A stretch of DNA of 64,000 nt from Clostridiales bacterium (GTDB lineage Bacteria; Bacillota; Clostridia; Christensenellales; Aristaeellaceae). Below the pieces are notes generated by a model that saw nothing but the letters and a program-made list of their open reading frames with translations, was not told where the DNA came from and did not search any database. The stretch covers positions 248,001-312,000 of the forward strand of contig SVGL01000001.1 in NCBI GenBank assembly GCA_015056325.1. The letters are read 5' to 3'. A program made the position numbers and the translations under genes. Positions 35,641 to 37,471 of the stretch are shown here, piece by piece (the first letter of the stretch is position 1; each line of letters begins with the position of its first letter).

Positions 35641-35681
35641 GAACCCGATTGATACGTGTGTCAATCGGGTTCTTGCTTTTT
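35641..35681 (+). terminator. strong intrinsic terminator
   Basis: GAACCCGATTGA pairs perfectly with TCAATCGGGTTC over an 8-base loop, followed by TTGCTTTTT. Confidence 0.95.
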
Positions 35682-35701
35682 CAGGCAGAGCGTGCTATAA
35701 T
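35673..35701 (+). promoter_or_regulatory. sigma-A promoter of the CNNM gene
   Basis: TTGCTT, which overlaps the T tail of the previous terminator, and TATAAT are 17 bases apart. It predicts a leader of about 180 bases. Confidence 0.7.
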
Positions 35702-35707
35702 ATAGTT

Positions 35708-35880
35708 TGTGTAAATCTATGTATGTGGAAGGAGTGACGGCTTCGTGGATCAGCCCCCTTGTAGTCCTGTGCCTGCGACGGCCGTGATGTGCTTCCGCAG
35801 GCGATGAAAGCACCGGGTGATGCCCGGGAAAGCAGCTGGTTCTGCCACTGTGCCGGGACCGGCTGACTATGAAAGGACTG
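35708..35880 (+). promoter_or_regulatory. structured leader RNA of the CNNM gene, riboswitch or attenuator candidate
   Basis: AGTCCT (35763-35768) pairs with AGGACT (35874-35879) and encloses three hairpins: GCCTGCG/CGCAGGC (35771-35802), CCGGG/CCCGG (35813-35827) and a 10-base-pair helix (35833-35842 with 35856-35865), forming a four-way junction. ATGAAAG occurs twice at junction strands. The closing helix contains the AAAGGA ribosome binding site. A further hairpin can form at 35729-35760. I cannot match it to a known riboswitch class by eye. Confidence 0.6.
35745..35807 (+). CDS. possible 20-codon leader peptide, proline-rich
   Basis: GTG 35745 lies 10 bases after AAGGAG (35729-35734) and opens a 20-codon frame ending at TGA 35805. 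The peptide reads MDQPPCSPVPATAVMCFRRR, with four prolines including a PP pair and three terminal arginines. A ribosome on it would melt the closing helix and first hairpin of the structured leader. Short Pro-rich leader peptides control some Mg2+ transport genes in other bacteria; that this is one is inference. Confidence 0.4.
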   Translation: MDQPPCSPVPATAVMCFRRR

Positions 35881-35890
35881 CTTGATTTCC

Positions 35891-37171
35891 ATGACGCCCG
35901 ATTTATGGATCCTTGTTGCCATACTCTTTGTGTGTGTGGCGCTCTCAGCTTTCTTCTCTGCTTCTGAGACGGCTTTCACCTCCGTCAACCGCGTTAAGCT
36001 CAAAACGCTGATGCAGAATGGCAGCAAGCGTGCCAAGCTTGCTCTGACCCTGACCGACGACTATGATCGGCTGATCACCACCATCCTGATTGGCAACAAT
36101 ATTGTGAACATTGCGGCTTCGTCGCTCGCGACGAGCCTGTTTCTTGTGTTGTTGAACAACCAGGCGAATCTGGCTACGACAGTCTCCACGGTGGTGATGA
36201 CGGTCGTGATTCTGATCTTTGGCGAAGTCTCTCCCAAGGCGATTGCAAAGGAATCGCCCGAGAGCCTGGCGATGACCTTTTCGCCGGTGTTGCGGATGCT
36301 GTGCACCATCTTCACGCCCTTTGCGGTTCTGTTTACCCTGCTCAAAAAGATGCTTACCAAGGTCATTAAAACCAGCGAAGAAGAGGAGTCCTTCATTGAG
36401 GAAGAGCTGATGACCATGGTGGACGAGGCGCAGTCTGAGGGTGATATGGACGCCCACGAGGGTGAGCTGATTCGTTCTGCCATCGAGTTTAACGATGACC
36501 GTGATGTGATTTCCATTTTGACCCCTCGTGTGGATGTCACTGCGATTGAAGATACGGCCACCATGGAGGAGGCGGCTGAACTTTTCCGGGCCAGCGGATA
36601 CTCCCGTGTGCCTGTTTACCATGAGGACATGGATCACATTGTCGGCATCTTGAATGAGAAGGACTTCTACCTGCAGAAGCACCACGGGTGTACGGATATT
36701 ACCGAGATTATGAAGCCTCCGGTATACGCACCGACCACGCTGAAGCTGTCCAAGCTGCTCAAGCTCATTCAGGCACAGAAGACGCATTTGATCATCGTGC
36801 TTGACGAATTCGGCGGTACGGAAGGCATCGTCACCATGGAGGATGTGCTGGAAGAACTGGTGGGCGAAATCTACGACGAGCACGACGATGTGGAGCAGGA
36901 CACTGTCGAAATGGACGATGGTTCCCGCCTGGTGGACGGCAGCATGCAGCTGTCTGAGCTTCTGGATATGTTCGGTGTAGAGGATATCTACAATGCTGAA
37001 ACAGTTGGCGGCTTTGCGGCTGAGGTTCTGGGGATTATTCCCTTTGTTGGTTCTGTCTTTGAGACAGACGAGATTCGCGGCCTGGTTACCCAGATGGATA
37101 AACGCCGGGTGATGCAGGTTCGAGTATGGAAGAAGGAAGCGCCGATGAGCGGTGCATCTGAAGATGCTTAA
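35891..37171 (+). CDS. CNNM/CorC-type transporter with CBS domains
   Basis: A 426-residue membrane protein of the hemolysin C/YrkA/YugS group. A DUF21 (CNNM) membrane domain (about 1-190) with SAFFSASETAFTSVNR and GNNIVNIAAS is followed by a CBS pair (about 210-335, TPRVDVTAIED and VLDEFGGTEGIVTMEDVLEELVGEI) and a CorC_HlyC domain to the end. CNNM/CorC proteins move Mg2+ or related cations. ATG 35891 is 13 bases from AAAGGA, a little long; TTG 35882 is too close. The ribosome binding site is inside the leader's closing helix. Confidence 0.9.
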   Translation: MTPDLWILVAILFVCVALSAFFSASETAFTSVNRVKLKTLMQNGSKRAKLALTLTDDYDRLITTILIGNNIVNIAASSLATSLFLVLLNNQANLATTVSTVVMTVVILIFGEVSPKAIAKESPESLAMTFSPVLRMLCTIFTPFAVLFTLLKKMLTKVIKTSEEEESFIEEELMTMVDEAQSEGDMDAHEGELIRSAIEFNDDRDVISILTPRVDVTAIEDTATMEEAAELFRASGYSRVPVYHEDMDHIVGILNEKDFYLQKHHGCTDITEIMKPPVYAPTTLKLSKLLKLIQAQKTHLIIVLDEFGGTEGIVTMEDVLEELVGEIYDEHDDVEQDTVEMDDGSRLVDGSMQLSELLDMFGVEDIYNAETVGGFAAEVLGIIPFVGSVFETDEIRGLVTQMDKRRVMQVRVWKKEAPMSGASEDA

Positions 37172-37192: not shown

Positions 37193-37471
37193 ATGACAAA
37201 AGTAACAACTAAGCACAATAAGAAGGAAGAACAGAAAAAGATGGCGGTTCGCATCATCTGCCTTGTGCTGGTAGTGATGCTCGCGCTAGGTTCCCTCATC
37301 GGCATTACTGGCTTGTTCCAGGGGGGACAGATCGATCCTCAGCTTCAGGCGATGATCGATGCCGGCTTGGTTTATCTGGCGGAGGACGGTAATTACTATT
37401 ATACCGAGGAATACATCAACCTCCTGACGGAAATGTCCACAGTGGAGGAAGAGGAACACACCCACGAATAA
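37193..37471 (+). CDS. small single-pass membrane protein, unknown
   Basis: A 92-residue protein with a Lys-rich cytosolic start (about 1-16), one membrane segment (about 18-42) and an acidic outer tail with LVYLAEDGNYYYTEEYINLL and EEEEHTHE. AGGAGG lies 5 bases before the ATG. It sits 21 bases after the CNNM gene and 27 before the CapA gene, so the three are probably one operon. I do not recognise a family; the His/Glu tail could bind metal, which is speculation. Confidence 0.8.
   Translation: MTKVTTKHNKKEEQKKMAVRIICLVLVVMLALGSLIGITGLFQGGQIDPQLQAMIDAGLVYLAEDGNYYYTEEYINLLTEMSTVEEEEHTHE

Follow-up and report, generated by a model that had tools for sequence, protein, structure and literature searches.

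The leader of a CNNM/CorC family gene carries a short upstream open reading frame (uORF) that begins Met-[Asp/Glu]-x-Pro-Pro. It lies upstream of CNNM in 20 leaders (one per genome) of uncultured gut bacteria from five genera of a single family, among them the leader in the window, meaning the entire 64,000-nucleotide stretch of Clostridiales DNA that was analysed. Judged by comparison of these sequences, the uORF is real and conserved rather than a chance ORF, because 20 leaders carry it, codons 1–5 show an exact coding pattern, and both the length of the ORF and the placement of its stop exceed what shuffled sequences produce. It is very probably translated, and the geometry of the leader suggests that it rather likely serves in cis as a positive gate on CNNM translation. 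The complete picture, in which a translated uORF gates CNNM positively and Mg2+ is the leading but not exclusive signal, is plausible, if somewhat short of probable.

All features of the locus lie on the forward strand. The upstream gene, encoding an HI0933-like flavoprotein, is followed by an intrinsic terminator (35641–35672) that sets it apart from the CNNM leader, and then by an extended -10 element (TGCTATAAT, 35693–35701) that would be the leader's own promoter; TATAAT or a near variant was present at the matching place in the leaders of relatives. Since both elements precede it, the leader is probably part of a transcript of its own, with an RNA 5' end predicted near 35708, and the uORF is probably its first ORF. 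The initial annotation had described AAGGAG, ten bases and a GTG opening a 20-codon ORF in the CNNM leader, and this was confirmed: the Shine-Dalgarno sequence (SD) occupies 35729–35734, 10 nt ahead of the GTG at 35745–35747, and the frame, MDQPPCSPVPATAVMCFRRR, extends across 35745–35807 to a TGA stop at 35805–35807. The conserved core codons span 35745–35759. A first hairpin lies within the uORF (35771–35802; GCCTGCG at 35771–35777 against CGCAGGC at 35796–35802), and the description of the ORF as ending exactly at the junction after this hairpin was roughly right, as the hairpin ends at 35802 and the stop codon 5 nt later. Between the uORF stop and the CNNM SD, the window species has a G+C-rich stretch with two strong hairpins (35811–35868), which is part of a long, variable middle; at this place the leaders of relatives vary in length and sequence, and the middles are much shorter where the uORF stop abuts the CNNM start.

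The CNNM SD, GAAAGGA, lies at 35871–35877 and the gene itself at 35891–37171, its ATG being 83 nt past the uORF stop. A TTG at 35882, which a mechanical list of ORFs gave as the CNNM start, was rejected in favour of the ATG at 35891 because the sequence MTPDLWI is conserved from that ATG. An alternative GTG within AAGGAGTG, in frame +1, was also rejected; an SD does not fit ahead of it, and its frame is broken by 1-nt indels in the spacers of G008, G013 and G006. Directly 3' of CNNM is a 92-codon ORF on the same strand (37193–37471, +) that has no Pfam match and is possibly co-transcribed.

Part of the evidence that the uORF is coding came from codons 1–5. Variation was seen in seven of their fifteen columns: at the first base of the start codon (G, A or T), at every base of codon 3, and at the third base of codons 2, 4 and 5. 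This set coincides precisely with the columns at which start-[D/E]-x-P-P tolerates change, a match with a chance of 1 in 6435 when columns are taken as independent and relatedness is ignored, and the same seven columns varied when G087 and G140 were left out. The uORF start codon itself was exchanged among leaders (GTG, ATG or TTG). M-[DE]-x-P-P was kept in all 20 leaders, always with a single acidic residue and with codon 3 absent in G087, the Pro-Pro core of G087 and G140 being partly a selection effect, as these two leaders were recognised by reading upstream regions. G087 has an upstream region unlike the others and lacks the whole of codon 3, yet it has MEPP in frame; for G140 the start may be, in place of the TTG, a GTG that lies two codons farther upstream in the same frame. 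The initial annotation had called the peptide proline-rich and proposed that orthologues be compared for PP and CPxP codons; the adjacent prolines at positions 4 and 5, present in 20/20 leaders, were all to which 'proline-rich' applied, the CSPVP stretch proved to be confined to the subclade of the window species, and conservation of CPxP codons was not supported.

The gap between SD and start was 8–10 nt in all leaders (10 nt in most, 9 nt in G008, G013 and G006, and 8 nt in G087), while the sequence of the spacer changed between genera. In most of the genus the spacer at 35735–35744 (TG[A/G]CGG[C/T]TTC) is nearly invariant, and it is different in other genera; its conservation goes beyond the need of an SD-start pair, and pairing with CNNM codons 2–4 explains only part of it. 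The length of the uORF was also constrained, all 20 being 20–34 codons long, which was matched by none of 5000 sets with a shuffled middle. No amino-acid constraint was found in the middle of the uORF, where changes past codon 5 were mainly non-synonymous and frame +1 was about as open as the uORF frame. Visible constraint was thus restricted to codons 1–5, the reading frame and the position of the stop. These observations bear on the proposition that the leader is an RNA element alone, with bases kept for pairing (GUGGA with UCCAU, and CCY-CCY-U with the CNNM SD) and a frame that is incidental or lightly translated. This is improbable, given that the variable columns of codons 1–5 are exactly coding-neutral, that the SD distance is near-constant, and that ORF length and stop placement both beat shuffles.

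Structural predictions gave this proposition some of its attraction. The minimum-energy fold predicted for the window leader joins 35744–35753 and 35761–35768 to 35874–35893, where the SD and start of CNNM lie, and so places the GTG of the uORF opposite the ATG of CNNM. The 5' arm of this predicted start-to-start helix (35744–35768) comprises the uORF start region plus GTAGTCCT, and the 3' arm (35874–35893) runs from the CNNM SD to the ATG. RNAalifold, applied to 18 leaders, picked out CGUGGA:UCCAUG and CCU:AGG unaided; the duplex had an energy of -21.9 kcal/mol compared with -17.2 kcal/mol for shuffled sequences (equalled by 0/100), and pairing in register occurred in 72% of cells, compared with 30–52% when the arms were slid. 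However, covariation was not above that of shuffles, and pairing within species was not clearly better than pairing across species (1310/20000 permutations). The helix was also absent from the predicted ensemble of about six leaders that keep the uORF (G087, G140, G074, G003, G011 and G014), the most divergent leaders being among them, which argues against pairing as the sole reason for conservation. The annotation had put forward conservation of the fold without the frame as a refutation of its leader peptide; across leaders the reverse was seen, the frame persisting where the fold does not. Its suggestion that ribosomes on the uORF would open a helix hiding the CNNM ribosome binding site found agreement in the predicted pairing of the uORF start region with both that site and the start codon, a pairing backed by energy but not by covariation. 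The helix is therefore best regarded as a reasonable prediction and not as an established feature. A ribosome placed as a block on the uORF start raised the mean accessibility predicted for the CNNM start codon from 0.17 to 0.36, but in the static fold of the window species the block did little to open the CNNM start. Concealment of the CNNM SD by the middle sequence was no different from that in shuffles (p = 0.20).

The conserved proline codons were CCT or CCC in 40/40 cases, whereas neighbouring genes use these codons for about 60% of prolines. As CCY-CCY is complementary to an SD, this invariable third-position pyrimidine hints at an added role in RNA and is a point for an RNA element. There is a precedent in Salmonella mgtQ, where the conserved Pro4 codon acted via base pairing, a synonymous change to CCG being equivalent in effect to replacing the amino acid (PMC8092293). 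The proline codons may act as an anti-SD RNA rather than as peptide, or constraints on peptide and RNA may both apply to them here. The peptide motif itself, one acidic residue plus Pro-Pro, is weaker than those shown to destabilise ribosomes. The 3' tail of 16S rRNA is GGATCACCTCCTTT; in relatives, the sequence GTGGATCAACCTCC at 35745–35760 is similar to this tail, i.e., an anti-SD-like stretch at the uORF start. Searches of the leader against Rfam families, both at the gathering threshold and at E ≤ 10, returned nothing meaningful, which also speaks against a purely structural element; a cobalamin-type riboswitch was briefly considered and dropped.

The uORF stop was often close to the CNNM start. 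In 11 of the 20 leaders the stop fell between -4 and +6 nt from the CNNM ATG, compared with 4.3 expected, and this was reached by 3/5000 shuffled sets, a figure inflated by relatedness because leaders were treated as independent. In all 11, the CNNM SD is read as Glu-Arg with the stop shortly after, and the uORF stop and CNNM start overlap as ATGA in G248 and G251, and also in G015 if its second ATG is taken. A stop at or near the downstream start is what defines a coupled uORF, and its placement in these 11 leaders favours coupling. The stop lies farther upstream of CNNM, by 42–83 nt, in the window species (83 nt) and some close relatives (G011, G004 and G009). No intrinsic terminator was found between uORF and CNNM, the sole terminator-like site being that at 35641–35672, upstream of the promoter; a transcription attenuator with a leader peptide was discarded on this basis.

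These positions also bear on the sign of regulation. If the uORF acted negatively, in the manner of MgtL and CorL, its efficient translation would repress CNNM, through site occlusion or exposure of a Rho site, and drop-off would relieve it. The inverse relation of mgtL and corL translation to mgtA and corA expression (PMC11552253) lends this some support, as do the distant stop and intervening hairpins of the window species, but it is unlikely by a wide measure, considering the 11/20 stops at -4 to +6 nt, the predicted concealment of the CNNM start codon in the ribosome-free fold, and a sign that would turn the exporter on at low Mg2+. The sign implied by the analogy with MgtL in the initial annotation was not supported: importers are what translation of MgtL and CorL represses, regulation of an exporter calls for the reverse, and the sign of the uORF is probably opposite to that of MgtL.

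DNA similarity detected the leader in 11 of the 18 genomes of the genus. A model built from sequence alone on the start block of the uORF gave a match ahead of CNNM in 15 genomes of this genus, in a single genome from a second genus and, weakly, in two genomes from a third. Searched across the order at E ≤ 5e-4, the leader had no match beyond the genus. Leaders without this uORF precede many other CNNM genes that were examined in the family; among the leaders of more distant CNNM genes, there were few uORFs with a strong SD and none with an early Pro-Pro. When whole genomes were scanned for such a uORF ahead of genes other than CNNM, counts were at or below the reversed-pattern control. Sequences resembling GGAGG...TTGGAACCTCCTCC were noted away from CNNM in three genomes (G006:C2:27948-27971, G010:C17:16231-16254 and G014:C66:12730-12754). 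On the CNNM protein tree, the distribution of the uORF required about four changes, at least three of them forced by well-supported branches, and the uORF was present in deep branches. It is either an old feature that was lost several times or one that was gained more than once.

The downstream protein has all of the expected parts, i.e., the CNNM transmembrane domain, the CBS pair and the CorC_HlyC domain, and it aligned with the solved structure of MtCorB (7m1t, 1.4e-62) and with CorC; by homology, it is a probable Mg2+ exporter. MpfA of S. aureus, a bacterial CNNM relative, protects against high Mg2+ and lowers internal Mg2+, although direct transport by such relatives is debated (PMC6711546). 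MgtE was found in 1/18 genomes of the genus, and CorA in 11/18, with none in the incomplete genome of the window species. The M-box (RF00380) is comparable as a leader RNA of Mg2+ transporters in Bacillota, but it had no match in the window or in the 18 genomes of the genus.

Control of Mg2+ transporter genes by leader peptides is known, and several systems share elements with the present uORF. MgtL, upstream of mgtA in Salmonella and E. coli, is also a short leader ORF ahead of an Mg2+ transporter gene, with an acidic residue at position 2 and prolines within the first five codons (PMC11282234), although sequence homology is not expected; in that a short ORF equipped with an SD occupies the 5' leader of an Mg2+ transporter gene, the present uORF is of the MgtL type. 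Its N-terminal acid plus Pro-Pro resembles both MgtL (EPDP), the type to which the annotation had compared the peptide, and MgtQ (Asp2, Pro4, Glu5). However, MgtL has EPDP where the uORF has only one acidic residue plus adjacent prolines, and its translation represses an importer through Rho termination, whereas the gene here is of the CNNM exporter type and the geometry indicates positive coupling. MgtQ, upstream of Salmonella mgtB, has Asp2 and Pro4 at matching positions and uORF RNA that overlaps a helix affecting the downstream ribosome binding site, as is predicted here; mutation of its start codon lowers the downstream gene (PMC8092293), which is the sign proposed for the present case. 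It differs in having 8 codons, in being intergenic within an operon, in having Glu5 for Pro5, and in that drop-off raises expression of an importer. YoaL (mgpA/yoaE; Salmonella and E. coli) is a leader ORF that supports a CorC-domain protein protecting against excess Mg2+, again with the same sign as that proposed here (PMC12421838), but it overlaps the region upstream of mgpA, which encodes a TerC-domain protein and not a CNNM protein, and no M-[DE]-x-P-P core has been described for it. CorC of the same organisms carries an N-terminal IRD sequence (PMC12421838), which differs in lying inside the gene itself. CorL, upstream of corA, is a uORF in an Mg2+ transporter leader that responds to intracellular Mg2+ (PMC11552253), but its translation represses corA, it has one proline only and it is Rho-based. 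No leader peptide for a CNNM gene and no such motif was found in a search of the open-access literature, and the CNNM leader uORF is undescribed in that literature.

In the preferred mechanism, the untranslated RNA would fold so that the SD and the start codon of CNNM are both masked by the uORF start region (SD, GTG and proline codons). A ribosome starting on the uORF as the RNA emerges would hold the start-to-start helix open and, in most relatives, would terminate at or just before the CNNM ATG, allowing hand-over or reinitiation there. The Met-[Asp/Glu]-x-Pro-Pro start would render the first peptide bonds fragile, such that a weakened ribosome, most plausibly one at low Mg2+, would drop off at codons 4–5, the helix would close and the exporter would be off; with ample Mg2+ the uORF would be completed and the exporter made. 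Ribosome drop-off is known on the EPDP of MgtL (PMC11282234), Asp2 and Glu5 of MgtQ are likewise of a ribosome-destabilising kind (PMC8092293), and short nascent chains with consecutive prolines favour drop-off, which at an N-terminal Pro-Pro is EF-P-sensitive (PMC8934632). CorC-domain genes are induced by high Mg2+, and loss of the YoaL start codon lowers MgpA (PMC12421838). By analogy with these systems, Mg2+-dependent early drop-off on the uORF is offered tentatively; a positive gate combined with drop-off at low Mg2+ would keep the exporter off, which is the useful direction and agrees with the direction proposed for CorC and YoaL-MgpA in Salmonella (PMC12421838). The initial annotation thus largely holds for the anatomy of the leader, while the Mg2+ or proline sensing that it put forward is a candidate function.

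The uORF could also be translated and coupled to CNNM without sensing Mg2+, either as a constitutive activator or with Pro4-Pro5 reporting EF-P status, charging of prolyl-tRNA or general ribosome fitness. The EF-P sensitivity of N-terminal Pro-Pro drop-off (PMC8934632) would suit such a role, as would the response of proline-codon leaders such as mgtP to charged tRNA-Pro (PMC8092293), and stop-start geometry of -4 to +6 nt is sufficient for coupling by itself. This is nonetheless somewhat unlikely: the downstream gene was an Mg2+-type transporter in 20/20 cases, such a uORF was not above background elsewhere, and a pure proline sensor has no need of the acidic codon 2 that is kept in 20/20 leaders. 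The Mg2+ reading in its most specific form is itself rather unlikely to hold in every part. In this form, bacteria other than Proteobacteria would have a Mg2+ switch of their own: early drop-off on a Met-acid-x-Pro-Pro peptide would turn a CNNM exporter off at low Mg2+, and the proline codons of that peptide would double as the exporter's anti-Shine-Dalgarno, six bases thus carrying a peptide code and an RNA code at once.

The switching of CNNM/CorC-type Mg2+ export is little understood, and a 2025 study called the mechanism by which Salmonella CorC-domain proteins are switched on unclear (PMC12421838); a conserved leader peptide in Clostridia offers a small element that is open to direct test. 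Should the Mg2+ reading hold, the stability of the ribosome would set both import, as in MgtL, where drop-off turns the importer on, and export, where drop-off would keep the exporter off, and drop-off would be wired in opposite ways in distant phyla.
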